64,000 nt of DNA from Hyphomicrobiales bacterium (GTDB taxonomy: Bacteria; Pseudomonadota; Alphaproteobacteria; Rhizobiales; Rhizobiaceae). The DNA is taken from assembly GCA_900473685.1 (NCBI GenBank), contig UCNE01000019.1, forward strand, positions 1 to 64,000. The letters run 5' to 3'. The notes beneath the pieces were generated by a model, which was given only the letters and a program-made list of their open reading frames with translations, had not been told where the DNA came from and ran no database searches. Below are positions 28,193-60,255 of this stretch, in pieces. Each line of letters starts with the position of its first letter. The first letter of the stretch is position 1. The translations under genes and the position numbers were made by a program.

Positions 28193-29974
28193 ATGGCACA
28201 GGCCATTCAAAAAATCGCGCTCAATGCCGGGCGCGATATCCCCTTCAACAAGCTCGTCCTCAGCCAGCAGAACGTCCGCAAGACCAAGGCGGGCGTTTCG
28301 ATCGAGGAACTCGCCGACGACATTGCCCGGCGCGGGCTGCTGACCAGCCTCAACGTCCGTGCGGAATTCGACGCCGAAGGCAAGGAGACGGGCATCTATC
28401 GCATCCCGGCCGGCGGCCGTCGATACCGTGCGCTGAAACTGTTGGTCGACCGCAAGCAACTGACGAAGACCACCGGCATTCCCTGCATCGTCAGCGAGAG
28501 CGAAACCCTTGAAGCCGAGGACTCGCTTGCCGAAAACGTCAGGCGCGTCGATCTTCATCCGCTGGACGAGTTTCGCGCCATGATGGCCCTGCGCGAACAG
28601 GGGTTGGACGAGGAGGAAATCGCCGCAAATTTCCATATGTCGGTCGCAACCGTGAAGCAGCGCCTGCGGCTGGCGTCGGTCTCGCCGCGCCTTCTCGAAT
28701 TCTACGCCGACGACGAGATGAAGCTCGGCCAGGTCATGGCGTTCACAATCACCAATGACCACGTCCGTCAGGAGCAGGTCTGGGATACGATCTCCCGGTC
28801 GCACAATCAGGGCGCATATTGCATCCGCCGGATGTTGACCGAAACCGCGGTTCGGGCTTCCGATCGCCGCGCCGTCTACGTCACCGTCGAGGCCTATGAG
28901 GCGGCTGGCGGCGTCGTGATGCGCGACCTCTTCGAGCAGGACAATGGCGGATGGCTACAGGATCCGGCAACGCTCGAGCAACTCGTCCTCGAAAAGCTGA
29001 CGGCTGACGCGGAAGTTCTCAAGGCGGAAGAGGGGTGGAAATGGGTCGATGCAGCCTTCGACTTTCCGTATGGCCACACGTCCGGACTGCGGCGCTTCTA
29101 CGGTGAAATGGCCGAACACACCGAGGAAGAGCTTGCCCGCCACGATGCGTTGAAGGCGGAATACGACAAGCTTGAAGCCGAGTACGCGGAAGCGGACGAC
29201 TCTTCCGAAGAAACCGAGGCACGTCTCGAGGAGCTCGGCACCCAACTGGATGCGCTGAATGACAGGCCTTACGTCTTCGACCCTGAGGACGTTGCCCGTG
29301 GCGGTGCGTTTGTCTCGCTAGCCGCCAATGGCGAGTTGAAGATCGAACGCGGTTATGTCCGGCCCGAAGACGAGCCAGTCACTGAGACGGATGACGCCGC
29401 CGGCGATGATGTCGATCAGGACGGTGAAAGCGACGACGACGCTGTTCCGGCGACGGGTGGTGTGTCGGTCAACGGCAAGCCGGCCGGCGTCGAGGAACCG
29501 GACGAGGACGACGGCAAAATCCGGCCGCTGTCCGAGCGTCTCATCGAGGATCTGACCGCGGCCCGCACTGTCGCGCTCAGGAACGCACTCGCCAATGATC
29601 CGATCATGGCGTTCATCGCCGCGCTACACCTTCTCGTGCTGAAGACTTTCTACCGATATGGGACGGCGTCTTGCCTGGAAATCACGGCGCAGCACGGGGT
29701 TTCGAACCAGGCGCACGGACTGGCGGATACCGTCTGGGCAAAGGAGATCGATCAGCGCCAAGAGAACTGGGGGCACGATCTTCCCGGTGATGCCGATGCG
29801 GTCTGGAGCTATCTCATCACACTCGATCAGGATAGCCGCATGGCGCTGTTTGCCCATTGCACCTCGCTGGCGCTCAACGCCACGATCCAGCAGTGGAACC
29901 GCCGGGCAAAGGAAAACGACCATGCCAAGCAGCTTGCCCAGTCGATCGGGTTCGGCATGGTCGAGGCAGGCTGA
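28193..29974 (+). CDS. ParB/RepB/Spo0J-like protein, cut short by an in-frame TGA
   Basis: The readable part is 593 residues. The ParB N-terminal nuclease-like domain is clear (FNKLVLSQQNVRKTKAGVSI, the GGRRYRALKLL box near 76, ESLAENVRR-like EDSLAENVRRVDLHPLDEF). A helix-turn-helix follows (EEIAANFHMSVATVKQRLRL near 148), then a long acidic, partly coiled region (about 320-440) and a C-terminal domain. Proteins of this size are common on rhizobial plasmids and integrative elements and are accessory DNA-binding proteins rather than the partition ParB. The TGA at 29972-29974 stands where a tryptophan codon (TGG) is likely, and homology-like reading continues in frame to 30340. Confidence 0.85.
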   Translation: MAQAIQKIALNAGRDIPFNKLVLSQQNVRKTKAGVSIEELADDIARRGLLTSLNVRAEFDAEGKETGIYRIPAGGRRYRALKLLVDRKQLTKTTGIPCIVSESETLEAEDSLAENVRRVDLHPLDEFRAMMALREQGLDEEEIAANFHMSVATVKQRLRLASVSPRLLEFYADDEMKLGQVMAFTITNDHVRQEQVWDTISRSHNQGAYCIRRMLTETAVRASDRRAVYVTVEAYEAAGGVVMRDLFEQDNGGWLQDPATLEQLVLEKLTADAEVLKAEEGWKWVDAAFDFPYGHTSGLRRFYGEMAEHTEEELARHDALKAEYDKLEAEYAEADDSSEETEARLEELGTQLDALNDRPYVFDPEDVARGGAFVSLAANGELKIERGYVRPEDEPVTETDDAAGDDVDQDGESDDDAVPATGGVSVNGKPAGVEEPDEDDGKIRPLSERLIEDLTAARTVALRNALANDPIMAFIAALHLLVLKTFYRYGTASCLEITAQHGVSNQAHGLADTVWAKEIDQRQENWGHDLPGDADAVWSYLITLDQDSRMALFAHCTSLALNATIQQWNRRAKENDHAKQLAQSIGFGMVEAG

Positions 29975-33426: not shown

Positions 33427-33978
33427 ATGAACAATCTTGCCCAACATTCCCGCTCCGGCTCCGCCGGTTTCAAGGTCGATATCTCGCGCGGCGAGCGCAT
33501 CGGCCGTGTGTCGTCCGAATGGTTCTCACGCCCGGACGACGAACGCTATCTCTCGCTCTGCGATCTGCATCGCACCGTCAGCGCCAGGACCGAGCGCGCC
33601 CGTGTCCGTACCGTCGAAACTGCCGAGATCCGCGTCGAGGCCACTCGTGACAATGCGGAACGTTTGTCCCTGATCGTTCCCGGCGGTCGCGATCCACTGG
33701 CGCCGACCCAGTGGAGTTATGGTCAGCTCTGCAGCCTGGTTGGCGCGCCGGCGAGCTATATGCGCCAGTTGCCGGCGCCACTGGCCGCGATCAACCTCCA
33801 GCACGGGCTCCTCAACCACAGCGCCGAAATGGTCAAGACGCTGGAGATGGACGACGGGCGCGTCGAACTTCGGGCGGTGACCGGTCCCGAATATGGCCGT
33901 ATCTGGGGTCGGAACAAGACCAGTGCGAAATCGTACGCTAAGGGCGAACGGAGTAGGAACTTACGCGGCGTGCCTTAG
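33427..33978 (+). CDS. DUF932 family protein, truncated by a Tn3-family element
   Basis: The frame starts with [20 protein letters not shown] and reads through [40 protein letters not shown] and [20 protein letters not shown], matching the N-terminal half of DUF932 proteins (normally 350-400 residues). At 33905 it runs into the terminal repeat of the Tn3-type element. The last 25 codons are transposon sequence ending at 33978. DUF932 proteins occur on plasmids and phages next to ParB-like genes; function unknown. The truncated product is probably inactive. Confidence 0.8.
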
Positions 33979-36900
33979 CCCAGCCGGAAGGCGGAGCGAT
34001 CGGAATCCGCTCGACATCTGATGCTCCGCATCCCAGGTGTAGATACCTGTAAGGTTGATATGTTCCCAACTGAGCGGGGAGATGTGCTTCAACAGAGCGT
34101 CAGGAATGTCTCGCCCCGCTCGTTTCAGCTGAGTGACCGCGCGATCAAGATAAACCGTATTCCAGTGCACGATCGCACTGACCACCAGATTGAGCCCCGA
34201 GGCGCGGAAAGCCTGGCTTTCGAACGACCGATCACGGATTTCGCCTCGCTCGTGGAAGAAGACAGCGCGCTTCAGCTTATGCGCTGCCTCGCCCTTGTTG
34301 AGGCCGGCTTGACAGCGCCGCCGCAATGCTGGACTTGAGTACCATTCGATCATGAAGAGCGACCTCTCGATACGGCCGAGTTCTCGCAGCGCCCTTGCGA
34401 GATGGCTTTGCTTTGGAGATCCGGACAGCTTCTTCAGGATCGTAGACGGCACCACGGACCGCGTTGTGATCGACGCCGCGAGATGGAGCAGATCGTCCCA
34501 ATGGTCGAGAATGAGAGTGGTGTTGATCGGCGCCCCGATATGGTTCGACAGGGCCGGATATGCGTCGCCCTTCTCGAACGTGTGGAATTTCCGGTCTTTG
34601 AGATTGCGCAGTCGCGGTGAGAACCGCTTTCCGAGCAAGGCGAACAGCCCGAAGATATGATCACTGGCACCACCCGTGTCGGTAAAGTGTTCATGGATGT
34701 CGAGGACCGTGTCCTGATCGAAGAGCCCATCGAGCACATAGGCCGCCTCGCTTTCGGTCGGACTGATGGGCAAAATGCTGAAGTAGCCGTACTGATTTGA
34801 TAGATGGCTATAGAATTTCGATCCGGGTTCACTGCCGTAATGCAAATTGATGTCGCCGCGCTTTGCGGCTCGGTCGCTCGCACGAAAGAACTGGCCATCT
34901 GAAGAAGATGTCGTCCCGTTGCCCCAAAGGCGGGAATGCGGATGGCGGGTGTGTGCATCGGTTATAGATGCTTGCGCAGCACGATATGTTTCGGATCGGG
35001 CGTGGAAAGTGCGCATCCAGCCGATCTGGTGAGCGCTGATCCCCTTGGATGCGCCCGCCATTCGCTTTGGCCCGAGATTGGTCGCATCCGCCAGTACGCC
35101 CGCGAGCATGGCAGAGACATTTTTCGGAGTGTCGCCGGTGCGAACATGCGTGAAGAAATCCGCAAAGCCGGTCCATTCACGCACGTCTCTCAACAGATCG
35201 GGAACCTCGACCAGCGAATACATGTCGCTGATCTCGGCATTCAGTTCCTCGGCGGCCACGGGGACTTCGCCGGCGGTTGGTGTGACGATCAACGTTCCGG
35301 CCGCAAGACGAACTCCTTCGAGCTTTCCGGATCGGGCTCTGTGCGCCAGACGCTTCAGGTTGAAGTCGAGCATCTGACGGGCTTCGGCAAGCCACCGCGC
35401 GCCATCAGCCTCGACGCCCAATCCAAGACGATCCTCTTCCTTCATCGTGATGAATGTCGACCGCGGCATCAGATGTTCGTCAATCGGCCGGAAAGATCGG
35501 CTGCCGTCGATCCAGATCTCCGCAGATCTAAGCCGGTCTCGCAAAACTGCGAGCGTTGCGATCTCGTAGAGACGGCGATCGGGTTTTTCCTGTTCGAAGA
35601 TGAGTCGCCGATCGGTCTGGCTGAGGTGGGTGAGCGGGATGCGATCCGGCAGTGTCCGCCGTTTCTCGGCATGGAGTCGCTTCAGCAGTGCAATTGCCGC
35701 GAGAAGCGGATCGTGACGACGCGCCGAGCGGAACGTGAAGACCTGAAGGAATGCACCGGCATATTTGTTGACCGTCGCATATTGCTCGGCTGCTACGGCC
35801 AACGCCGCTGCCTCGTTGTCCTCAACCATCGACTCGAGCTCAGGCTTGATCCGAAGCAGCCGGTCCCAGCCGACTTTCTGGTCGAGCACCTCCAACGCGT
35901 TCCGACCATAGTCGTTGGCGGACTGCAGTGCGGTGATCGTATCTAGAAACATGCGTAGCGCTTTGGCGGTGTTCGCTCTGCAGTCCACCTGTCGCTGCTT
36001 CTTTCGATTGTTGGCTTGTGAGAACAACTTACCCATCAGCTTGATGAACATCGTGACCGCATCGTCCGTGAGCTTCTGGCCAAGCTTGATGACTTGAGCC
36101 ACGATCAGAGCGTGGCGACGGCTAGCGTTGAAGTCGTTGGCAAGCCAGGCCGGCGTTGCGTTACCTTCCCGTATCATCTGCTCCCACCGTCGGGATGATA
36201 CCCGCGCCTGTAGTTTCGGATCGATCTCCAGCCGCCGCAGAAAAGCTATCCGCTCGGTCAGCCCGACGAGGTTCGACGCGCCCGGCGCGTCTGGCGCCGA
36301 GCGCAGCCAATGACGGCGCGTCTGGCCAATCGACGGGTCAACCTCTAACAGCCGATCCAGTGATTGAAGCCTATCGACTGGGATGTCTTCAACCAGAGTT
36401 CTTTCTGCCCGGCGCCGGGCTATCGCACGGCTGGCAAGGCCGATCCGTTCGATCGTGTCGATCGCCGGCAGAAGAGCTCCGTGTTCGCGAAACGTTGCGA
36501 CAAGCGAACTGGCTATTGCAGCACCGTCGTCGGACGTCGCCGCCGCCTGGATTGCGGCCAATAGCGCGGCTCGGCGATCTTGCACCGTGGCGCTTCTTGT
36601 ATCCAGATATGCCATTAAACGTGCCGTGTGATCCCGACGTGTTTCTTCGCGGCGTGCATAGAGGGTAAATGCTTCTGGGGTGGCGCCGATTTGATCAGCA
36701 ACATATTTCAGCATGGGGCGAGGCGGAGTTTCCTCTGCCCCCAGCGCTCGACCCTAGCTGGATGGCAAAGCCGAGCCGATTGTGATTACGTCTCCGCAGT
36801 TCGATCTCCAGGCGATCGGCCGGCGACAACGAATAGTGTCGGATTAGGCTGTCCTCGTCGACTGGTACGTCGACAAGCTTCCGTCGATCTTGATCTTTGA

Positions 36901-46312: not shown

Positions 46313-46649
46313 GCGATGCTCATCAGGAACGTCGATGGCCGTCACCACGGGATCCCTAAACGACTGCCTATCGGGCTGATCTAAAGATTTCTGAGATCCA
46401 GGTTGGCCACTGCGAGGGTGATGGCATGTCTAGATGGTACCCGTTTGGCAATGTGATTTTAGCCGGCGCTTGAACTTTGCGGGTCGGGTGCAGTCATGTC
46501 TTCGGTGTGTTTGTGCGGCGCGTTATGACCGCTGGCCCTGATATTGCCCGCAGGTCGATTGGAAAACGAAAGTACGGCAGGAATGCGCCGATATCGGTAC
46601 TGCTGCGATGATCAGCTCCGCGACCATATCCGAAGGCCTCGCTCCCCAT
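46313..46649. other. Intergenic remnant upstream of the decayed RND gene
   Basis: No gene or RNA was recognised. The region ends where similarity to the intact RND pump gene begins abruptly at about 46650. Confidence 0.4.
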
Positions 46650-47674
46650 GTCCGCCAAGCTAACCGCGACTGGGGTAACCGCACGCCGGTGTTACGCTTC
46701 ATACCGGATCAGGATCGGTTAAACCTGATCGGCCTTTCTCCATCGGAGGCGGCACAGCAGATGCTACTGAACGGCATTCCGGTCACGCAGGTGTGCGACA
46801 ACATCCGCAACGTGCCTGTCGTTGCTCGAAGCGCCGGCGAAAACCGACTTGACCCTTCGAGGCTTGCCGACTTTTCTCTGATGAGCAGAGATGGCCGTCA
46901 GGTACCGCTCGATCAGGTCGGGCACTCCGAGATCCGGTTTGAGGAGCCAATCCTGAAGCGTCGCGACCGGACGCCAGTGATCACGATCCGCTCCGACATC
47001 AACGAGGCGACACAGCCCCCGGAGGTCTCGCAGGAGGTCATGACGGCTGTGCAACCACTCATCGCCTCGCTGCCGGTCGGGTATCGTATCGAAATGGGCG
47101 GAACATCGAGGAATCCCAAAAGGCCAATAACGCACTCGTCCAGGTCTTTCCGCTGATGATCGCGGCGATGTTGATCGTCATCATCCTGCAGGTTCGCAGT
47201 CTCTCGACAATGACAATGGTGATGCTGACGGCGCCGCTAGGCCTCGCCGGCGTGGTGCCGGCATTGCTCCTGTTCAACCAACCGTTCGGCTTCAACGCCA
47301 TTCTCGGCTCGATCGGATTGGCAGGTATCCTGATGCGTAACACGCTGATCCTGACGGAGCAGATCAAGGAGAACCAGGCGGCTGGTCTCGATGACTATCA
47401 CGCCGTCATTGAAGCGACTGTACAGCGCACACGCCCTGTCATCCTGACGGCGCTCGCAGCCGTCCTGGCCTTTATACCCCTAACGCATTCGGTGTTCTGG
47501 GGATCAATGGCCTATACGCTGATCGGCGGAACGGCAGCAGGGACGGTGATGATCCTGCTTTTCCTTCCGGCGCTGTACGCCGTGTGGTTCCGGATCAAGC
47601 CTCCAAAGGAAGGGCGCCACCGCGAAACGATTGCGGAGGAGCCGCGGTTTACCAGGACCATGGCTGCCGAGTAG
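46650..47674 (+). pseudogene. C-terminal third of an RND efflux pump gene, frameshifted
   Basis: From 46650 the translation VRQANRDWGNRTPVLRFIPD onward matches residues about 698-1037 of the intact RND pump at 55557-58670. The N-terminal two-thirds are missing. At about 47101 one base is lost (GGCGGAAC where the intact copy has GGTGGCAAC), shifting the frame. Reading resumes at 47156 (MIAAMLIVIILQVRSLSTMT) to the natural stop. Codon differences between the two copies are frequent, so this is an old paralog or separately acquired relative, not a recent duplication. Confidence 0.88.
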
Positions 47675-50507: not shown

Positions 50508-50590
50508 GAGCAGAATTTGCGTTCTCCGGTCCCAATTAGCCAACCCGAGTGGCGGCGCTCCAATCTGAAGCAAAAAGGGAAGTGATCCTC

Positions 50591-51111
50591 ATGAATACGA
50601 CCAGTTTTGGCGTCGCACTGGTGACCGGCGCATCCTCCGGCATCGTCCCGTCCGCTGGACGCGCTCAGGAAGCCGTGGTCGTGTCCGATAATCCGGAAGC
50701 ACTGTTCACAAGTGCCGACCCAAGGCTGAATGCCAACAACAGGTGGTCTACAAGATTATCCTTGAGCTTTTGGAAGCGGGCCAATGGGACAAGGCAAGCC
50801 AGTACATTGCTGACGACTACATCCAGCACAATCCGAACGCTCAAAGTCGATTGAAGCCTGTCATTTACTATTTTATCGAAGTGCTCAAGGTGAAACCCAA
50901 GCCGATCCCGGCGAAGATCTCCATGAAGATAGCCAATGTGGTTGCGGAGGGCGATCTGGTGGTAGTGACCTATGCCCGGACCGAAGAAGACCCGCAAAAT
51001 TTGTCGAAAACCTACAGCACGACCTGGTTCGACATGTGGCGCATCAAAGATGGCAAGGCCGCAGGGCATTGGGACCCGGCGTTGCTCAACGAGGCGCCCG
51101 ATTTGCGCTGA
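50591..51111 (+). pseudogene. SnoaL/NTF2-like protein gene, frameshifted and fused to an SDR start
   Basis: The first 18 residues (MNTTSFGVALVTGASSGI) are the start of a short-chain dehydrogenase. They run directly into AQEAVVVSDNPEALFTSADP, the usual beginning of an exported SnoaL-like protein. At about 50741 one base is lost, so the rest is read in another frame: QVVYKIILELLEAGQWDKAS, then TTWFDMWRIKDGKAAGHWDP to LLNEAPDLR. The mixture of two gene starts and one frameshift marks a broken gene. Function in the family is a small ligand-binding or isomerase-like fold. Confidence 0.75.
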
Positions 51112-51175: not shown

Positions 51176-51373
51176 TCAGACCTTTGGTTTGTCGAGCGAC
51201 AGAAGTTGCTCGATCTCAGTCTCCGAGCGGCGTTTTGGCTGCAGTTGGGCCAGTTGTTGTTCGATCTGGCGGACCCGCTGTTCAAGGCTGAGCAATTGAT
51301 TGCCGCGCAGGTCATCGATACCGGTCAGGGCCTCCTCCCAGATCCGCCATTTCGCCAAAAATCGTTTCAGCAT
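51176..51373 (-). CDS. 65-residue coiled-coil protein, hypothetical
   Basis: The protein starts MLKRFLAKWRIWEEALTGID after GGGAGTAAGACG and contains a Leu/Gln-rich heptad segment (LLSLEQRVRQIEQQLAQL, about residues 26-43) with a basic and acidic tail. This looks like a short coiled-coil able to dimerise. It is on the same strand as the ftsZ-like gene and starts 50 nt after its stop, so it may be the last gene of that transcript. No family recognised. Confidence 0.6.
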   Translation of the reverse strand: MLKRFLAKWRIWEEALTGIDDLRGNQLLSLEQRVRQIEQQLAQLQPKRRSETEIEQLLSLDKPKV

Positions 51374-51423
51374 CGTCTTACTCCCGCATGAATGAATCCA
51401 GGTTGTGCCCAACGCTGGGACAT

Positions 51424-52449
51424 CTAGGCGACCCGCGCGCCAAGCACGGATGCCGACAGGGCACGGCTCAGGCCCGTTGCCACGATAGAGACCCGCATCG
51501 TGTCCCCGAGCGCAGCGTCAAACGACGCACCAAAGATGATGTCAGCATCCGCATCGACCTCGTCGCGGATCCCGTTTGCCGCCTCATCGACTTCGAACAG
51601 CGTCAGGCCATGAGCGGCCGACATAGCGACCAGAACCCCTTTTGCCTCTTTGAGTGTGGCGTCGCCAAAGAGCGGATTGTCGATCGCGGCCTTTGCGGCT
51701 GCCGCTGCCCGGCCTGGACCTGACGCTTCTCCAGTGCCCATCACGGCCATTCCCATATTCCGCATGACCGAGCGCACATCGGCAAAATCCAGATTGATCA
51801 GTCCTTCGGTGAGGATCAGGCGGATGATCGAATTGACGCCTGCCGATAACACCGCGTCCGCCATGGCAAATGCCTCAGCGAGCGTGGTGGATGGATCAGA
51901 AAGACGAAAAAGGCATTGGTTGGGCACGACGATCACCGTGTCGGCGCATTCGACAAGCCGCTGGATACCCTGTCTTGCCTGCCGCAAGCGATGGGGACCT
52001 TCGAAGGCAAACGGTTCCGTGACGACCGTGACCGTGAGAATGCCAGCATCACGCGCCGATCGCGCAATGACGGGCGTCGCTCCGGTTCCCGTCCCGCCTC
52101 CCATTCCCGCCGCGAGGAAGCACATATCGCAGCCGTCCAGATGCGCCATGATCTCGTTAATCGATTCTTCCGCTGCGGCACGGCCGACGTCGGGCAGGGA
52201 CCCGGCGCCAAGGCCTTGGGTGAGGTTCAGGCCAAGTTGCACGATGCGCGGCGATGTGGAGGACGCGAGCACCTGGGCATCGGTGTTCACAACCAGAAAA
52301 TCGACCTCTGCCAGATTTTGCGCGAGCATGTTAGCGACCGCGTTGCCGCCACCACCACCGATGCCGACCACGGTGATCGCCGGCTTCGGTCCTGCCATTT
52401 TTCGTGAAGGGGTCATTGTCGTCATCCGTTCGTCGGCGTCGAAGATCAT
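51424..52449 (-). CDS. ftsZ: FtsZ-type tubulin homologue without C-terminal tail (FtsZ2-like)
   Basis: The 341-residue protein has a complete FtsZ GTPase core: GIGGGGGNAV near 29-38, the tubulin signature MGGGTGTGATP at 116-126, and the T7 catalytic loop NLDFAD at 219-224, all key residues intact. It ends soon after the core. The long linker and the conserved C-terminal peptide that binds FtsA and other membrane tethers are absent. Short second FtsZs of this kind occur in rhizobia. It overlaps the stop of the KAS gene by four bases (ATGA), so the two are translationally coupled. The first ATG is taken; ATGs 24 and 33 nt later are possible. It can probably polymerise but not anchor itself. Confidence 0.9.
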   Translation of the reverse strand: MIFDADERMTTMTPSRKMAGPKPAITVVGIGGGGGNAVANMLAQNLAEVDFLVVNTDAQVLASSTSPRIVQLGLNLTQGLGAGSLPDVGRAAAEESINEIMAHLDGCDMCFLAAGMGGGTGTGATPVIARSARDAGILTVTVVTEPFAFEGPHRLRQARQGIQRLVECADTVIVVPNQCLFRLSDPSTTLAEAFAMADAVLSAGVNSIIRLILTEGLINLDFADVRSVMRNMGMAVMGTGEASGPGRAAAAAKAAIDNPLFGDATLKEAKGVLVAMSAAHGLTLFEVDEAANGIRDEVDADADIIFGASFDAALGDTMRVSIVATGLSRALSASVLGARVA

Positions 52450-53723
52450 ACTGCTTTTCGAGGCCAGCGTTTGAACAGCGCGCTTGCGTTCACCCCGCCG
52501 AAACCAAAGCCGTTTGTTATGGCGTAATCCATTGAAACGGATCGGGCTTTGTTGGCGACGAAGGGAATGCCGTCGCTTGCGGGGTCGGGCGCGTTGAGGT
52601 TCAAAGTCGGTGGCGCCACCTGGTCTCTGAGCGCCATGATCGTGAAGATTGCCTCGAGTCCGCCGGCAGCACCTAGAAGATGACCTGTCGCAGATTTCGT
52701 CGCGCTGACGGCAAGATCCGTTCCTATCCCGAACACGGTCTTGATCGCTTCGATTTCGCCACGGTCTCCGACCGGGGTCGATGTTGCATGCGCGTTCAGA
52801 TGACGGATCTGATGTGGGGCTATTCCTGCCTGATCGATGGCGATCTGCATTGCTCTTGCCGCGCCAGACCCATCCTCGGGGCCGGAGGTGATGTGATGGG
52901 CATCTGCGGTGGTGCCGTAACCAACAAGCTCGGCCAAGGGTTCGGCGCCGCGCGCAATCGCATGGCTCAGCGCTTCGATGACCAGCACGCCCGCACCCTC
53001 GCCCATCACGAAGCCGTCGCGCAACATGTCGAATGGCCGCGAGGCAAGCTCGGGGGTGTCATTGAAGCCGGACGACAGCGCGCGCGCCGCCGCGAAGCCT
53101 CCAAGACTGACGGTATTGATGCAGGCTTCGGTGCCACCGCAGACAGCTATGTCAGCTTCGCCCGCCCGGATCATGCGCGCGGCGTCACCGATGGCCTGAA
53201 CGCCGGCCGCGCAGGCTGTCACCGGCGCACCGAGAGGACCCTTGAACCCATGCCGGATCGATACTTGACCGGCCGCGAGATTGACGAGGAAGGAGGGAAT
53301 CGTAAAGGGCGACAGGCGTCGTGGACCCTTCTGATCGACGGTCCTGACAGCTTCGGTTATCGCCGGAAAGCCGCCAATCCCAGAGGCGATGATTGTTGCC
53401 GTTCGTAGGTGCTGTTCTTCAGAGCCTGGCTTCCACCGGGCTTGCGCGATCGCCTGATCTGCCGCGGCCAAGGCAAGCAGAATGAAGCGATCGACCTTGC
53501 GCTGATCCTTGGGCGCAAAAACGATATCGGAATCAAAGCCGGCCTCCGGATCATCCTCGATCGACGGAACGACGCCGCCGACCTTCGCGGGAAGATCCCC
53601 GACAATGTCATCCGGCAGACGGCGGATGCCGGACCTGCCAGCGACGAGCCGTGTCCAGGAGCTGGACACAGTGGCACCGAGCGGACTGACCGCTCCCATG
53701 CCGGTTACGACAATGCGACGCAT
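52446..53723 (-). CDS. fabF: Beta-ketoacyl-ACP synthase II family protein (FabF paralog)
   Basis: The 425-residue condensing enzyme starts MRRIVVTGMGAVSPLGATVS and keeps the Cys-His-His triad: Cys in VTACAAG (about 171), His in NAHATSTPVGD (about 312) and His in ATGHLLGAAG (about 348). It would condense malonyl-ACP with an acyl group. An additional FabF outside the core fatty-acid locus often serves a special lipid or polyketide. No acyl carrier protein or other fatty-acid gene is next to it; instead it is coupled to the ftsZ-like gene downstream and follows a tetR gene by 45 nt. Confidence 0.9.
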   Translation of the reverse strand: MRRIVVTGMGAVSPLGATVSSSWTRLVAGRSGIRRLPDDIVGDLPAKVGGVVPSIEDDPEAGFDSDIVFAPKDQRKVDRFILLALAAADQAIAQARWKPGSEEQHLRTATIIASGIGGFPAITEAVRTVDQKGPRRLSPFTIPSFLVNLAAGQVSIRHGFKGPLGAPVTACAAGVQAIGDAARMIRAGEADIAVCGGTEACINTVSLGGFAAARALSSGFNDTPELASRPFDMLRDGFVMGEGAGVLVIEALSHAIARGAEPLAELVGYGTTADAHHITSGPEDGSGAARAMQIAIDQAGIAPHQIRHLNAHATSTPVGDRGEIEAIKTVFGIGTDLAVSATKSATGHLLGAAGGLEAIFTIMALRDQVAPPTLNLNAPDPASDGIPFVANKARSVSMDYAITNGFGFGGVNASALFKRWPRKAV

Positions 53724-53768
53724 GTAAGCTCCAATATTCAAGACAGGGGAGGCGGGGCGGAGTCCGGG

Positions 53769-54353
53769 TTAGTCGTCCTTGATCGGCGCGAGACGCTTTA
53801 CCTCGTTAACGGCCGCTTCCAGCACGCGGTTTGACATATCGCCATCGGTCATGACGCGAGAGAGTGTGACGGCGCCGACGAGGAGCGACAGAACAACCAT
53901 TGCCTTCTCGTCAGCGCGGATGTCGCCTGCCCTTGGCATCAGTTCCTCCAGCACCTGAAGGTGCGCTTCTATGCCGTCCTGGAACGGGGTCCGAACCTGC
54001 GTACTCTGGCGTGCGGCGTCAGCACCGAGCGCGACCAGCGGGCATCCGTCGCCGGTTTCCCCCCGATGATCGGCGGAGAGGTAGAACTCGACGACAGCTC
54101 GAAGCGGATCCGAACTGGAGGCCGCAACGGAGGACCATCGGCGGGTCGCACTTTCCATGGCGCGCCGTGATGCAAGGGCTGCGAGATCGTCCTTCGATGC
54201 GAACTGCTTGTAGAAGCCGCCCTGGGTGAGACCGGCTCCCTTCATCAGATCCTTCAGGCCAATGCCGTCGAAGCCGCGCTCTCGAAACAGCCTGCTGGCG
54301 ACGTTGATCACGGTTTCCCGGTTAGCCTCTGCCTGGGCGCGGCTTACTCTCAT
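53769..54353 (-). CDS. TetR-family transcriptional regulator
   Basis: The 194-residue protein begins MRVSRAQAEANRETVINVAS with a helix-turn-helix (RERGFDGIGLKDLMKGAGLT, QGGFYKQFASKDDLAALA). The ligand domain follows to about residue 190. It belongs to the AcrR/QacR-like set. It is transcribed away from an RND efflux operon, 97 nt from the membrane-fusion gene, and precedes the fabF-ftsZ genes on its own strand. It may therefore control both directions. Confidence 0.9.
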   Translation of the reverse strand: MRVSRAQAEANRETVINVASRLFRERGFDGIGLKDLMKGAGLTQGGFYKQFASKDDLAALASRRAMESATRRWSSVAASSSDPLRAVVEFYLSADHRGETGDGCPLVALGADAARQSTQVRTPFQDGIEAHLQVLEELMPRAGDIRADEKAMVVLSLLVGAVTLSRVMTDGDMSNRVLEAAVNEVKRLAPIKDD

Positions 54354-54366
54354 GGTGACTTCCTTT

Positions 54367-54416
54367 TAGATTTCATTTGACATCTATATACGTTTTAGAG
54401 TTAGAGTGCAATCTAA
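54367..54416. promoter_or_regulatory. Weak inverted repeats in the tetR/RND divergent promoter
   Basis: TAGAT (54367-54371) faces ATCTA (54382-54386), and TTAGA (54395-54399) faces TCTAA (54412-54416). The arms are only 5 bp, but they share the TAGA core and lie between the two start codons, as expected for TetR-type sites. Support is limited. Confidence 0.3.
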
Positions 54417-54450
54417 TTCGAATTCGTCGACCGTCAAGAAGGGTCAGCCC

Positions 54451-55557
54451 ATGAAAAAGAAACTTCTCCTTTCCTCCGCGGTGCTGGCCAGCATTGGCAT
54501 CGCGGTGACCGCCATTGCCTTTTGGCCCGCTGAAAAGGTGGCTGCGGCTGCTGACCCCCGCACTAACGCGCCGCTCGTGAGCATCTTCAAAGCGAAAACC
54601 CCCGATACGGTCTCGCGAAGCTTCACTGGCACGATTGCGGCACGGGTACAGAGCGATCTTGGCTTTCGCGTTCCTGGCAAGATCGTCGAGCGACTGGTGA
54701 ATATCGGTGATGAGGTGCGTGTTGGGCAGCCCTTGATGCGGATCGATGAAACGGATCTTCGTCTGGCCCTGACCGCTAAACGTAACGCGGTCGTGGCTGC
54801 CCAGGCAACATTCGTTCAAGCCCAGGCGGACGAGAAGCGTTTCGCAGCTCTGATCAAATCGCTGGCTGCATCAACACAGCAGTATGAGCGGTCGAAGGCG
54901 GCGCTTGATACGGCGACGGCTCAGCTTGCCGCGGTCAAGGCCGAAGCCGAAGTGGCTGAAAACGAGACGAAATACACACTCCTTCTGGCGGATGCGGACG
55001 GCACGATTGTTGAGACCCTCGGAGAACCGGGTCAGGTCGTTGCGGCAGGCCAGACGGTCGTGAGGCTTGCCAAGGCTGGTTCGCGCGAAGCGTTGGTCTG
55101 GATGCCGGAAAATCAGAGGCCCGATATCGGCGCTTCCGCTTTCGCGACGGTTTACGGGCAGGAGACGCAGGACAAGGCAGTGCTGCGGCAAATGTCCGCT
55201 GCAGCCGATCCCCGAACACGCACCTATGAAACGCGTTGGGTGTTGGAGGGTGCCGCCGCGTCGGCAGCTTTGGGCGCGACCGTCACGATCCGCATCGCCA
55301 ACAAGGACGCTCAGTCGCACGCGGAGGTGCCTGTCGGGGCGCTTCTGGACGATGGCACCCGCACCGGCGTCTGGGTGATCGATACGAAAGCATCGAGCGT
55401 CCGCTTCCGTGAGGTGAAAATCGAACGGCTTGGCGAAGAGACCGCGATCGTCTCCGGCGTGAAAACGGGCGAGGAGGTCGTGGCCCTTGGTGCACATCTT
55501 CTGACCGACGGCGCCTCGGTTCGCACCACTATCGAAGAAGCAAAGGCGGCGAACTGA
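54451..55557 (+). CDS. RND efflux periplasmic adaptor (membrane fusion protein)
   Basis: The 368-residue protein starts MKKKLLLSSAVLASIGIAVT, a signal or N-terminal anchor, after AAGAAGGG. It has the MFP layout: lipoyl half-motifs around IAARVQSDLGFRVPGKIVER and GTIVETLGEPGQVVAAGQTV, a coiled-coil hairpin between about residues 105-175 (rich in Ala, Gln, Glu), and a beta-barrel region. It bridges the RND pump and an outer-membrane channel (not encoded here). The stop overlaps the pump gene start by one base (TGATG). Confidence 0.9.
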   Translation: MKKKLLLSSAVLASIGIAVTAIAFWPAEKVAAAADPRTNAPLVSIFKAKTPDTVSRSFTGTIAARVQSDLGFRVPGKIVERLVNIGDEVRVGQPLMRIDETDLRLALTAKRNAVVAAQATFVQAQADEKRFAALIKSLAASTQQYERSKAALDTATAQLAAVKAEAEVAENETKYTLLLADADGTIVETLGEPGQVVAAGQTVVRLAKAGSREALVWMPENQRPDIGASAFATVYGQETQDKAVLRQMSAAADPRTRTYETRWVLEGAAASAALGATVTIRIANKDAQSHAEVPVGALLDDGTRTGVWVIDTKASSVRFREVKIERLGEETAIVSGVKTGEEVVALGAHLLTDGASVRTTIEEAKAAN

Positions 55558-58500
55558 TGACGTTCAACCTTTCAGCGCTTGCCGTTCGCGAGCGGGCGGT
55601 CACCCTGTTCTTCATCGTGCTTCTGGCGGCGGCGGGCGTTTATGCCTTCGTCAAGCTGGGGCGTGCTGAAGATCCTTCCTTTACCATCAAGACGATGACG
55701 GTCACTGCCGCCTGGCCGGGCGCGACGGCCCGCGAGATGCAGGACCTGGTCGCCGAGCCGCTCGAAAAACGTATACAGGAGCTGACCTGGTACGACCGCG
55801 TGGAGACGATGACACGTCCGGGCTACGCCTATCTGACAGTGACGCTCAAGGACAATACTCCGCCAAGCGCCGTTGAGGAGGAGTTCTATCAGGCTCGAAA
55901 GAAGCTGGGCGATGAGGCCAGGAACCTTCCGCCCGGTGTGTTCGGGCCATTCGTCAACGACGAATATTCCGACGTCAGTTTTGGCCTATACGCTCTAAAA
56001 GCCAAGGGTATGCCGATGCGTGATCTCGTCCGGCAGGCCGAGACGATCCGCCAGGACCTGCTGCACGTGCCGGGTATCAAGAAGATCAACATTCTCGGCG
56101 AGCAGCCCGAGCAGATCTTCGTCGAGTTCTCCTTTGCCAAGCTGGCAACACTCGGCATTTCGGCACAGGACATTGCCGGCGCTCTCCAGAAGCAGAACAC
56201 CGTTACGCCGGCGGGTTCGATCGACACGCGTGGACCGCAGGTGTTCATCCGCTTCGACGGCGCCTATGACAATATTCAGGCCATCGCCGACACGCCGATC
56301 GTTGCTGGCGGCCGCACGTTGAAACTGTCGGATTTCGCCGAAATCCGCCGCGGCTACCAGGACCCGGCAACCTATGTCATTCGCCACGAAGGCGAGCCGG
56401 CCATCATGCTTGGCGCCGTCATGCAGCAGGGCTGGAACGGGCTCGAGCTCGGCAAGGCTCTTGAAGCGCGTTCGGCCGAGATAGCACAAAAGCTGCCACT
56501 CGGCATGACGCTTGCGAAAGTCAGTGATCAAGCCGTCAACATCGACGCGGCGGTCGGCGAGTTCATGCTGAAGTTCGCGATGGCGCTCGGCGTCGTACTG
56601 TTCGTGAGCCTTGTCGCCCTGGGCTGGCGCGTCGGCATCGTCGTGGCGCTCGCCGTCCCGCTGACGCTCGCCGTCGTCTTTCTGATCATGCTGGAAACCG
56701 GGCGTTTCTTCGACCGCATCACGCTCGGGGCCCTGATCCTGGCGCTCGGTCTGCTGGTCGACGACGCCATCATCGCCATCGAAGTGATGGTCGTGAAAAT
56801 GGAAGAGGGCATGGATCGGATCAAGGCAGCCGCCTATGCTTGGAGCCATACGGCAGCCCCCATGCTGTCAGGTACGCTCGTGACGATCGTCGGCCTGATG
56901 CCGGTGGGCTTTGCCAAATCCGCGGCCGGTGAATATGCTGGCAACATCTTCTGGGTCGTTGGTTTCGCCCTGATCGTCAGTTGGGTCGTCGCGGTGGTGT
57001 TCACGCCGTATCTCGGCGTGAAAATGCTGCCCGACATCAAACCGATCGCCGGCGGTCACGCCGCCATTTACGGCACGCCGAACTATCAGCGGCTGCGTTC
57101 GGTCATCAAGCTCGCCGTGCGCCACAAGTATGTAACCTGCGCCATCGTTGTTGTGGTCATGGCTCTTTCGGTCGTCGGTATGGGTGGTGTGAAGCAGCAA
57201 TTCTTCCCGACGTCAGACCGTCCGGAGGTCCTGGTCGAAGTGCGTTTGCCACAAGGCACCAGCATCGAAACGACGACGGCCACCGTTGCCAAGGTGGAAC
57301 GCTGGCTCCAGGAACAGCCCGAGACCAACATCGTCACCAGCTATGTCGGTCAAGGCGCACCGCGCTTCTTCTTTGCCATGTCGCCTGAACTGCCGGATCC
57401 CGCTTTCGCCAAGATCGTGGCGCTCACCCCGAATGCGGAAGAGCGCGAGGCGCTGAAGCATCGCCTGCGTGCCGCGATATCCGATGGTCTCGCGCCGGAA
57501 GCGTTTGTGCGTGTGACACAGCTCGTCTTCGGACCGTTCACGCCGTTCCCTGTCGAGTTCCGCATCATGGGACCCGATCCGGAAAAGCTTTACCAGATCT
57601 CGGAAGAAGCCATGTCCATCATGCAGACGGTACCGGATGTGCGCCAGGTCAATCGTGACTGGGGCAACCGCACGCCCGTCCTGCGCTTCATTCCCGATCA
57701 GGATCGCTTGAACCTTATAGGGCTATCGTCCGCCGAGGCCGCGCAGCAGATGCAGCTTCTGTTGAGTGGAGTTCCAATCACCCAGGTTCGCGAGAACATT
57801 CGCAACGTACCGGTCGTTGCCCGCAGCGGCGGAGAAAACCGCCTCGATCCATCTCGGCTCGCGGATTTCTCCTTGATGAGCAGGGACGGGAGAGCGATCC
57901 CGCTCGACCAGATCGGTCACTCCGAAATTCGTTTCGAGGAGCCGATCCTGAAACGGCGAGACCGCACTCCGGTCATCACGATCCGGTCCGACATCAACGA
58001 GGTGACGCAACCGCCTGAAGTCTCGCAAGCCGTGATGCAGGCCCTTCAGCCGCTGATCGCGTCGCTGCCGGTCGGATATCGCATCGAGATGGGTGGCAAC
58101 ATCGAAGAATCACTGAAAGCGAACGTTGCGCTTGTCCAGGCGTTTCCGTTGATGATCGCCGTCATGCTGATCGTCATCATCCTTCAGGTTCGCAGTCTCT
58201 CGACGATGACCATGGTGATGCTGACGGCACCACTTGGCCTTGCCGGTGTCGTGCCGGCGTTGCTCCTCTTCAAACAGCCGTTCGGCTTCAACGCCATTCT
58301 TGGATTGATCGGTCTTGCGGGCATCCTCATGCGCAATACCCTCATTCTGACCGAGCAGATCAAGGAGAATCAGGCGGCCGGTCTCGACGACTATCACGCG
58401 GTAATCGAAGCGACCGTGCAGAGGACGAGGCCCGTCATCCTGACAGCGCTTGCTGCCGTGCTCGCCTTCATCCCCCTGACGCATTCGGTGTTCTGGGGAT

Positions 58501-58670
58501 CGATGGCCTATACGCTGATCGGTGGCACGGCTGTCGGAACACTGATGATCCTGCTCTTCCTGCCCGCGCTTTATACGGCCTGGTTCAGGATCAAGCCGAC
58601 GCCGGACGTGGCACATGAGGAACACGTGACCGAAGAACCGCAATTGCCGTTAAAAATGGCGGCGGAATGA
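55557..58670 (+). CDS. RND-family efflux pump, inner-membrane subunit
   Basis: The 1037-residue protein is of full AcrB/MexB length with 12 predicted membrane helices and two large periplasmic loops. The proton-relay acidic pair is in helix 4 (LLVDDAIIAIEVMV), and the first helix region LFFIVLLAAAGVYAFVKLGR and the C-terminal TRPVILTALAAVLAFIPLTH are typical. It belongs to the heavy divergent branch of multidrug pumps that includes nodulation-efflux and MexF-like proteins. It is coupled to the adaptor gene before it and to a TetR gene after it. A decayed partial paralog is at 46650-47674. Substrates are unknown. Confidence 0.93.
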   Translation: MTFNLSALAVRERAVTLFFIVLLAAAGVYAFVKLGRAEDPSFTIKTMTVTAAWPGATAREMQDLVAEPLEKRIQELTWYDRVETMTRPGYAYLTVTLKDNTPPSAVEEEFYQARKKLGDEARNLPPGVFGPFVNDEYSDVSFGLYALKAKGMPMRDLVRQAETIRQDLLHVPGIKKINILGEQPEQIFVEFSFAKLATLGISAQDIAGALQKQNTVTPAGSIDTRGPQVFIRFDGAYDNIQAIADTPIVAGGRTLKLSDFAEIRRGYQDPATYVIRHEGEPAIMLGAVMQQGWNGLELGKALEARSAEIAQKLPLGMTLAKVSDQAVNIDAAVGEFMLKFAMALGVVLFVSLVALGWRVGIVVALAVPLTLAVVFLIMLETGRFFDRITLGALILALGLLVDDAIIAIEVMVVKMEEGMDRIKAAAYAWSHTAAPMLSGTLVTIVGLMPVGFAKSAAGEYAGNIFWVVGFALIVSWVVAVVFTPYLGVKMLPDIKPIAGGHAAIYGTPNYQRLRSVIKLAVRHKYVTCAIVVVVMALSVVGMGGVKQQFFPTSDRPEVLVEVRLPQGTSIETTTATVAKVERWLQEQPETNIVTSYVGQGAPRFFFAMSPELPDPAFAKIVALTPNAEEREALKHRLRAAISDGLAPEAFVRVTQLVFGPFTPFPVEFRIMGPDPEKLYQISEEAMSIMQTVPDVRQVNRDWGNRTPVLRFIPDQDRLNLIGLSSAEAAQQMQLLLSGVPITQVRENIRNVPVVARSGGENRLDPSRLADFSLMSRDGRAIPLDQIGHSEIRFEEPILKRRDRTPVITIRSDINEVTQPPEVSQAVMQALQPLIASLPVGYRIEMGGNIEESLKANVALVQAFPLMIAVMLIVIILQVRSLSTMTMVMLTAPLGLAGVVPALLLFKQPFGFNAILGLIGLAGILMRNTLILTEQIKENQAAGLDDYHAVIEATVQRTRPVILTALAAVLAFIPLTHSVFWGSMAYTLIGGTAVGTLMILLFLPALYTAWFRIKPTPDVAHEEHVTEEPQLPLKMAAE

Positions 58671-58675
58671 TCACC

Positions 58676-59356
58676 ATGAGTTTCGATGCAATTTGCCAGG
58701 GTAAGTCCAACCGGAAGGCACCTGATGAGCCGCTTCCGCTAAACGAAGTGTTCGTGTCGCAGGAGGTCAGATCTGGGCTTGAACGCGAGCGCATAGCGGA
58801 CGTTGGGGAGAGGCTTATTCGCCACGTTGGCCACCGTAAGACAACGGTCGCCGATATCGCGTCGGACCTGCAGACGAGCCGAGCGAACGTCTACCGCTTC
58901 TTCCCGACGAAGGAGGCCATTGATCAACATGTTTGCGGTCGCGTGATCGACCAGACGCTACAGGCCTTGCGCCTGGTCGTAGGCGAAAATGAAGCCGCAA
59001 CGGTCCGCCTCCAAAAGCTTATTGAGCATCTACACCAGCTAAACATACGTCGTGTGACGGAAGAGCCTCACGTTCACGAGCTTCTTCTGGCTGCAATGGA
59101 GCAACGGTGGAGTGTGGCGCTTCGATATTTCGCAGAGACAGCGCGTTTGGTCGAGGCGGTGGTTCGCGATGGTCTCATTGGTGGAGAGTTCAATGTCCGT
59201 GACCCGGTAGAAGCGGCAAAATGCGTCGTGATCTCCATCACACCATTCATCTACCCAAGCTTTGCCCGCCAGCCCGTCCTTACGCACCAAAACATGGATG
59301 ACGCGCTTGGCATCCAAATCCGGTTTCTGAACGCGTCTCTGCAAAGTCGACGTTAG
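58676..59356 (+). CDS. TetR-family transcriptional regulator
   Basis: The 226-residue protein has a TetR helix-turn-helix located after a long leader: VGERLIRHVGHRKTTVADIA, SDLQTSRANVYRFFPTKEAI near residues 43-83. The ATG at 58676 lies 5 nt after the pump stop. It is placed at the distal end of the efflux operon, so the operon is bracketed by two different TetR-type genes (the other at 53769). A natural role would be substrate-dependent release of pump expression. Confidence 0.88.
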   Translation: MSFDAICQGKSNRKAPDEPLPLNEVFVSQEVRSGLERERIADVGERLIRHVGHRKTTVADIASDLQTSRANVYRFFPTKEAIDQHVCGRVIDQTLQALRLVVGENEAATVRLQKLIEHLHQLNIRRVTEEPHVHELLLAAMEQRWSVALRYFAETARLVEAVVRDGLIGGEFNVRDPVEAAKCVVISITPFIYPSFARQPVLTHQNMDDALGIQIRFLNASLQSRR

Positions 59357-59442: not shown

Positions 59443-60255
59443 ATGGCCGAACAAAAAGTGATCGTAATTACCGGTACATCCTCGGGGATCGGCGAGGCGG
59501 CCGCTCTGCAACTCGCGCAGGCAGGACATCTCGTTTACGGGGGCGCACGCCGTGAGGGCACATCCTCCATTCCCAACTTCAAACGCCGCATTGTGGATGT
59601 ATCCGATGACGCCTCTGTTGCCAGCTTCATAGAGGGCGTATTGTCGGAGGCTGGACGGATTGACGTGCTGATCAACAATGCCGGGGTGTCCCTCTTGGGG
59701 CCAACCGAAAACACCACGTCTCAAGAAGCATCGTGGGTCTTTGACACCAATGTCCTTGGTCCTCTTCGCCTGATCCGCGCAGTCCTGCCTTCAATGCGAG
59801 CGAGACGAAGCGGCCTCATCATCAATGTCAGCTCCGTACTCGGATTCCTGCCGGCCCCGTTCATGGGCATCTATGCAGCCAGTAAGCATGCGTTGGAAGG
59901 TTTGTCAGAGAGCCTCGACCATGAGATTCGCGAGTTCGGTGTCAGGGTTGTTTTGCTGGAGCCAACCTTCACGAATACGAACTTGGACGTGAATGCCGTG
60001 CAAGCGGCCGTACCGCTCGGCGCCTACGCCGCGCAGTTCCAGGCCACGATTAATGCCGTGCAGGGTCAGATCAAATCGGCGCCATCGGCTCAGTTCGTGG
60101 CTCAGAAAATCGCCGATGTCATCAACGGACGCTACAAGCTGCGTCAGCCGGTCGGCAAAGACGCAACCCTTCTTTCCCGTCTGCGCCGGTTTATGCCGGC
60201 CAAGGCTGTCGACGGCAGTCTGCGCAAGACATTCGGTTTCGCCAAAGGAAAGTAA
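59443..60255 (+). CDS. Short-chain dehydrogenase/reductase (SDR)
   Basis: The 270-residue protein has the Rossmann motif VIVITGTSSGIGEAAALQLA (TGxxxGxG), NNAGVSLLG near 84, the catalytic Ser in VSSVLGF and the YxxxK pair in YAASKHALEGLSE. It is a classical SDR and is probably NADP(H) dependent. The ATG is preceded by AAAGGAGGT, a strong ribosome binding site. It lies 86 nt after the TetR gene and is convergent with the next SDR gene. Substrate unknown. Confidence 0.9.
   Translation: MAEQKVIVITGTSSGIGEAAALQLAQAGHLVYGGARREGTSSIPNFKRRIVDVSDDASVASFIEGVLSEAGRIDVLINNAGVSLLGPTENTTSQEASWVFDTNVLGPLRLIRAVLPSMRARRSGLIINVSSVLGFLPAPFMGIYAASKHALEGLSESLDHEIREFGVRVVLLEPTFTNTNLDVNAVQAAVPLGAYAAQFQATINAVQGQIKSAPSAQFVAQKIADVINGRYKLRQPVGKDATLLSRLRRFMPAKAVDGSLRKTFGFAKGK

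Follow-up and report, generated by a model that had tools for sequence, protein, structure and literature searches.

Pairing of a spare condensing enzyme with efflux has been described in platensimycin producers, in which the FabB/F homologue PtmP3, able to replace FabF, and the efflux pump PtmP4 are proposed to confer self-resistance (PMC6804068). NemR, the TetR-family repressor that heads the nemRA-gloA operon of the Escherichia coli electrophile/chlorine response, senses through Cys106 (PMC8748444). Short FtsZ paralogues of the FtsZ2 type, which keep the GTPase core and are missing the long C-terminal tail, occur in Rhizobiaceae. The locus considered here lies in contig UCNE01000019.1 (assembly GCA_900473685.1) of a Hyphomicrobiales bacterium of the family Rhizobiaceae, of which positions 1 to 64,000 were analysed (the window). 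A minus-strand run of genes for a TetR-family repressor, a FabF-type beta-ketoacyl-ACP synthase (KAS), a short FtsZ and a 65-residue protein is placed there back to back with an RND efflux pump. The locus is read here, at about even confidence, as an inducible toxic-compound tolerance cassette that combines a pump with a spare FabF and, optionally, a spare FtsZ. The gene content, its conservation, the shared operator-like sites and the two-arm layout around the TetR gene are established at the level of sequence comparison. A literature search by titles and the beginnings of abstracts found no description of a pump/KAS/FtsZ cassette.

Gene run, divergent pump and control region

The TetR gene (53769..54353, minus strand; Pfam TetR_N 43.8 bits, with TetR_C_13 and TetR_C_13_2 also above the Pfam cut-off) encodes a NemR/LmrA-like repressor with a single cysteine, Cys104. 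It is followed on the same strand, after 45 nt, by the KAS gene (52446..53723, ATG at 53723; TIGR03150 524.8 bits, cut-off 493.75), which overlaps the gene for the tail-less FtsZ (51424..52449; TIGR00065 366 bits, cut-off 295.2) by the four bases ATGA; after a further 50 nt comes the gene for the 65-residue protein (51176..51373), which is read as a coiled coil and belongs to a cassette-linked family. Pfam matches of KAS and FtsZ likewise exceed the cut-off. The gene order, coordinates and gaps agree with those of the first-pass annotation. The start codon of FtsZ is uncertain, with alternative ATGs at codons 9 and 12, so that the 4-nt overlap holds for the first ATG only. No terminator-like site was found on the minus strand between 51000 and 54600, and the one minus-strand promoter-like site lies upstream of TetR, which is weak proof by itself as shuffled sequences average 0.8 such sites. 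Transcription of the four genes as a single unit appears plausible.

The genes for the RND periplasmic adaptor (54451..55557, plus strand; TIGR01730 193 bits, cut-off 94.9, scored on 54406-55557) and the RND permease (55557..58670, plus strand; Pfam ACR_tran 466.8 bits) run divergently from TetR and together identify an RND pump by profile. The adaptor start was set at the ATG at 54451 because the operator covers the GTG at 54406. No outer-membrane factor is annotated in the cassettes checked, and no search was aimed at one. Upstream of TetR lie two operator-like 20-mers that form a conserved pair; one (54367..54386) is nearer TetR and the other, TAGATTGCACTCTAACTCTA (54396..54415), overlaps the promoter-like site. 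The 20-bp motif, which was derived from the same sequences in which it was counted, was found in 52 of 52 distinct divergent promoter regions and in at least two copies in 44 of them, compared with 0-3 of 52 for shuffled sequences. Cys104 is conserved in all 59 aligned cassette TetR rows (53 distinct) and aligns with Cys106 of NemR (blastp E 4e-12, 24% identity over 188 aa). Having the TetR fold and a cysteine at the NemR 106 position, the protein is classed as NemR-like, and would as such be released by electrophiles or chlorine species.

The order TetR-KAS-FtsZ was found in Rhizobium, Ensifer, Agrobacterium, Shinella and Methylovirgula, usually with an RND pump. By annotation, plasmids of R. 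leguminosarum BT01 and A. tumefaciens Yub001 carry RND permease-adaptor / TetR-KAS-FtsZ-small open reading frame (ORF), and a Methylovirgula plasmid carries RND-adaptor / TetR-thioesterase-KAS-FtsZ; by tblastn, RND, TetR, KAS and FtsZ occur together in Ensifer adhaerens, R. jaguaris, Shinella sumterensis (locus L053, FtsZ frameshifted) and two further Agrobacterium genomes. The RND permease is 84-90% identical in eight FtsZ-bearing cassettes. The fabF-ftsZ order that had been singled out in the first-pass annotation is thus not unique to one strain and is kept outside close relatives, even in another family. The overlap between the two genes, for which conservation had also been considered, is not conserved, the gap being 41, 51 and 59 nt in the three annotated cassettes. 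At eight further loci, also on plasmids, RND, TetR and KAS occur without FtsZ.

The accessory KAS and the case for toxic-compound tolerance

The catalytic triad of the KAS was already noted as intact from the sequence alone, and alignment bears this out: Cys171, His312 and His348 align with Cys163, His303 and His340 of E. coli FabF (numbers that count the first Met and are one higher than in the pocket-residue numbering used below). With this triad and its equivalog score, the protein is a KAS of the FabF (KASII) type. It shares 52% identity with the next-best FabF of the genome, which is encoded on another contig and groups with housekeeping FabF in the tree. Accessory KAS form a clade separate from housekeeping FabF (support 100/100), and were compared in context using 80 KAS relatives from named genomes, 36 of accessory type and 44 of housekeeping type. 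An acpP gene was nearby at none of the 36 accessory-type loci and at 40 of the 44 housekeeping-type loci, so that by both grouping and acpP neighbour the accessory KAS falls outside housekeeping FabF. A TetR or HxlR regulator was nearby at 31/36 versus 1/44, and efflux genes were within ~6 kb at 11/36 versus 0/44; the efflux and regulator queries were taken from accessory loci, which favours these two contrasts, whereas the acpP contrast is free of such bias.

The accessory type is spread across Proteobacteria, as far as the gammaproteobacteria, and is present in 58 of the 394 genomes of the family sampled (threshold E 1e-150 or better; 59-100% identity). On a Pantoea and a Pseudomonas plasmid the KAS adjoins DHA2/EmrAB-like or RND pumps, another Pantoea plasmid carries a TetR-KAS pair, and HxlR stands beside KAS in both gamma- and alphaproteobacteria. 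The KAS-associated regulators belong to two unrelated families that both include thiol sensors, HxlR and NemR-like TetR. Two HxlR loci were recorded separately: an HxlR-KAS pair on a Pseudomonas paraeruginosa plasmid (L050), close to a class 1 integron that contains known resistance genes, and a 52% FabF relative of Stenotrophomonas maltophilia (L097), counted as housekeeping-type, with an HxlR regulator 96 nt upstream.

Forty-four alignment columns cleanly separate 87 accessory KAS from 41 housekeeping FabF, a count that leaves out L087, L089, L090, L091 and L092. L111F, F133T and P272G (E. coli numbering, first Met excluded) are fixed in 87/87 accessory KAS, and T137F, G304A/S and two changes flanking the GFGG gate are further separating columns. 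L111F is close to I108, a cerulenin-resistance position (PMC3996569; PMC7138838). Such differences hint, by sequence, at a KAS altered as a drug target. The nearest solved structures by sequence are those of the Burkholderia vietnamiensis KAS 4ddo and 4f32 (Z 58.7 and 58.3; 62% identity). A second KAS linked to export and regulation, as found here, is one mark of target duplication of the PtmP3 kind, in which the KAS would also be insensitive to the drug. The KAS clade and its neighbours point to drug tolerance; for membrane remodelling, the function guessed at first, no pointer was found.

In the proposed mechanism, a thiol-reactive or KAS-directed compound would inactivate the NemR-like repressor and so induce both arms. 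The RND pump would remove the toxic compound, the spare, less sensitive KAS would keep fatty-acid elongation running, and the small protein would serve the pump/KAS module. The cassette FtsZ would replace or supplement the division step blocked by the same stress, and might be a further spare target able to co-polymerise with FtsZ1. Defects in division can follow when lipid synthesis is disturbed (PMC11237625). These steps are inferred, among them the drug insensitivity of the accessory KAS and the support of division by FtsZ under the same stress. If the tolerance reading is right, Proteobacteria associated with plants and soil possess a mobile and inducible defence against inhibitors of fatty-acid condensation, and the spare FtsZ that some of them add would be a rare hint of natural attack on FtsZ.

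Several observations weigh against toxic-compound tolerance. Efflux genes (~6 kb) lie at only 11 of the 36 accessory loci. The class-specific changes of KAS are not significantly enriched at pocket positions (9/56 listed pocket/loop positions versus 28/298 other aligned positions; Fisher p 0.15). The B. vietnamiensis KAS 4f32, which has the signature residues of the clade, was crystallised with platencin, and the clade is therefore accessible to at least one KAS inhibitor. Most cassettes have no FtsZ, and the module therefore works without it. Finally, the link to the divergent RND pump drawn in the first-pass annotation stands for most FtsZ-bearing cassettes and fails in A. larrymoorei (L056/L209) and in genome G055 (L208), where TetR-KAS-FtsZ is present and no RND gene was found in 13 kb.

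The tail-less FtsZ: inheritance, selection and possible role

Three ftsZ genes are present in the genome, encoding a long FtsZ1 (C7), a short FtsZ (C21) and the window copy. The last is 341 aa long and stops straight after the C-terminal domain, without the linker and ...IPAFLRRQ(S/A)N tail of the long FtsZ1, and is thus not of the canonical divisome form. Its GTPase motifs are intact (GGGTGTG at 117-123; T7 loop NLDFAD at 219-224), and the earlier description of a short FtsZ missing its C-terminal tether peptide is upheld by the motif check and by comparison of its end with that of FtsZ1. The T1, T4 and T7 motifs are kept in 11/11 cassette copies. In the FtsZ tree, which takes L047 at full length and omits 15 rows (duplicates, the plasmid FtsZ1 L040, the incomplete L028 and the Shinella copy L053 with its frameshift), nine of the 11 cassette copies form one group (93/95, slightly below the usual mark), near which the Methylovirgula and G055 copies lie unresolved. 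All 11 split from 17 long FtsZ1 (100/100), a split that ignores short solitary FtsZ genes, which may fall among the cassette copies. Three such solitary genes (L212, L182, L183) have C-termini like those of cassette copies and are a possible source of the cassette FtsZ; no cassette gene was seen in 14 kb around L212, and L182 and L183 were read to ~4 kb. An ftsZ-like gene on a long branch (L041) was also seen on the Bradyrhizobium diazoefficiens plasmid pNK6a, among NopM-type genes and transposases.

Two FtsZ cassette groups, {L047, L209, L036, L055} and {window, L034, L210, L035, L054}, recur in the KAS tree. Mapping the presence of FtsZ on that tree, with remnants counted in, takes 11 changes, of which well-supported branches force at least 10. 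The simplest reading of the trees is that FtsZ joined before the two main rhizobial cassette groups diverged, has been passed on together with KAS and has repeatedly been lost. Decayed FtsZ pieces were found at three more KAS loci (L162, L163, L177), in three related genomes, with the adjoining KAS open. Selection was compared by omega (Nei-Gojobori; many dS values are >1 and one pair uses the frameshifted L053): FtsZ gave 0.11-0.18 in six pairs of the window's group, a range also seen for the four pairs of the window copy with other cassette copies, and 0.045-0.10 in three pairs of the Agrobacterium/R. jaguaris group, and KAS gave 0.04-0.08. FtsZ is therefore constrained, more loosely in the window's lineage, and by this measure the cassette FtsZ is under purifying selection. 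Given this selection and the agreement of the FtsZ and KAS trees in their main groups, FtsZ looks like a long-standing member of the cassette that has been inherited jointly with KAS and often lost.

The most serious rival explanation, possible but doubtful, is that FtsZ is a passenger: a plasmid-borne short paralogue would have inserted ancestrally between the KAS gene and the small gene and been co-expressed since, with little or no role. Its patchy distribution fits this explanation. Intact FtsZ lies directly behind KAS in only 4 of the 58 KAS-bearing family genomes, the window counted (from comparison of KAS coordinates with an FtsZ search of the other 57 genomes); remnants occur at three of the 30 KAS loci searched with flanks, out of 62 KAS matches; at least 10 gains or losses fall on the KAS tree; and FtsZ changes faster than KAS in the window's group. 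A mere passenger is, however, not expected to show omega far below 1 in 9/9 FtsZ pairs, nor values in the Agrobacterium/R. jaguaris group that equal those of KAS in two of three pairs (0.045 and 0.049 versus 0.049 and 0.056); in the third pair the FtsZ value is higher (0.100 versus 0.058). Intact GTPase motifs in every cassette copy and co-inheritance of FtsZ with KAS across genera also speak against it.

A molecular clue, to be taken as a lead only, is the loss of a cysteine at window position 207, which we place in helix H7: this residue is Cys in 57/57 other rows and Ser or Ala in 10/11 cassette copies. These residue counts additionally exclude L041 and L211; the rows left out fit the pattern, L028, L040, L041 and L211 having Cys and the second half of L053 Ser. 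An explanation by changes at an FtsZ drug site was considered and rejected, since the scan gave 10 class-specific columns only, position 207 among them, and the window copy has other cysteines. In a bolder extension of the tolerance reading, one natural thiol-reactive compound or class would disable both the condensing enzyme and FtsZ of rhizosphere bacteria, the cassette would supply a pump and replacements of both, and the tail-less FtsZ would be a working substitute that co-assembles with FtsZ1; taken jointly, these propositions are quite improbable. Were they true, FtsZ would be the target of a drug in nature and would have a mobile resistance gene of its own. A GTP-mimic prodrug has been connected with FtsZ, with no link to the cassette (PMC9239236). 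If the tolerance reading holds, the cassette also suggests what one or more groups of the tail-less rhizobial FtsZ paralogues, so far unexplained, may do.

Other cassette genes and comparison with known systems

It is unlikely, on balance, that the cassette makes or remodels an acyl product, with KAS, short-chain dehydrogenase (SDR) and thioesterase modifying lipids or a metabolite and the RND pump exporting the product or responding to it. PaaI-type thioesterase and SDR genes accompany some cassettes, the KAS catalytic residues are intact, and the changes at the KAS gate and pocket could equally alter substrate choice. However, the thioesterase and SDR genes are not constant, an acpP-like gene was not found at 36/36 accessory KAS loci, and the same KAS occurs at loci with unrelated pumps and regulators, to which a shared threat is a better fit than a shared product. 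As for the biosynthetic cluster that a producer would have next to such a KAS, Pfam gave no polyketide or peptide synthase domain in 26 of the 57 long ORFs of the window and three other ORFs, apart from the window KAS and KR side-matches of ordinary SDR proteins.

The 65-residue protein has no Pfam or NCBIfam match, and assignment to the DUF1127 type was dropped as no Pfam match was obtained. A hidden Markov model built from eight members, with up to 15 candidates per genome scored so that counts are lower bounds, matched at least 14 of 397 genomes of the order (E 0.001), with at least eight clear homologues (E 1.4e-5 or better) besides the window, from three other families of the order. In a class-wide sample, at least 1 of 385 genomes matched at 1e-5, the own genome alone among the matches listed. 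Five weak matches (L142-L146, E 4.2e-4 to 6.8e-4), with no cassette gene within 3 kb, were taken as chance. Among the matches listed, clear homologues occur only in pump/TetR/KAS cassettes, and all eight have an RND permease and adaptor in the surrounding 10-17 kb; five of these loci also have KAS (one broken), and none has FtsZ in the 10-17 kb read. The small gene lies directly behind the RND permease at three of the eight loci and in Microvirga. In two A. tumefaciens plasmids it follows KAS without FtsZ, and it was undetected at five FtsZ-bearing loci (L038, L047, L056, L208, L210). By this distribution, the small protein goes with the pump/KAS module and not with FtsZ, whose membrane partner it was first supposed to be, and it represents a family tied to the RND pump that has no Pfam or NCBIfam model. 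Membrane remodelling with the small protein tethering FtsZ, an idea prompted by gene order and by its basic/hydrophobic N-terminal segment, is highly improbable given homologues without FtsZ a few kb from RND genes (all eight clear ones listed, and Microvirga), the KAS-small gene pairs and FtsZ-bearing loci just described, and an N-terminal helical moment that does not stand out in the majority of nine sequences (permutation fractions 0.03-0.27).

Further genes flank the cassette in the window. A second TetR gene (TetR_C_27; 58667-59356, plus strand) starts 4 nt inside the RND permease stop, so that the RND transcript may carry its own regulator, and is followed by an SDR gene (59443-60255, plus strand). 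On the other side, 50549-50854 (plus strand) holds the start of an SDR gene (MNTTSFGVALVTGASSGI) that breaks off into other sequence; in Methylovirgula (L038) FtsZ is followed by a complete gene that begins similarly, and the window cassette may therefore have lost its copy. Two consecutive ORFs at 46608-47674 (plus strand) match only the C-terminal third of an RND permease and are probably the remnant of a second pump. A Tn3-type transposase gene (33961-36714, minus strand) and a gene for a ParB helix-turn-helix-domain protein (28193-29974, plus strand) suggest a plasmid-like or mobile region.

How does the locus compare with the described systems? It is like PtmP3/PtmP4 in setting a FabB/F-type KAS alongside an efflux pump, and unlike it in having a NemR-like regulator, an RND pump, FtsZ and the small protein; moreover, the stretches read here showed no biosynthetic cluster, and resistance is in this case a prediction. 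As in NemR, a TetR-family repressor with the aligned cysteine heads its operon, whereas the window TetR adjoins pump, KAS and FtsZ genes instead of those for a reductase and glyoxalase. The cassette FtsZ is similar to FtsZ2-type paralogues in its retained core and missing tail. It differs in ending directly after the core, forming a separate group, having Cys replaced at position 207 in 10 of 11 copies and sitting in a regulated pump/KAS cassette. The B. vietnamiensis KAS shares the signature residues of the clade; however, 4ddo and 4f32 were deposited as ordinary FabF, and 4f32 is platencin-bound. The cassette is accordingly filed as a variant of the target-duplication-plus-efflux kind, of which FtsZ is the unusual part.

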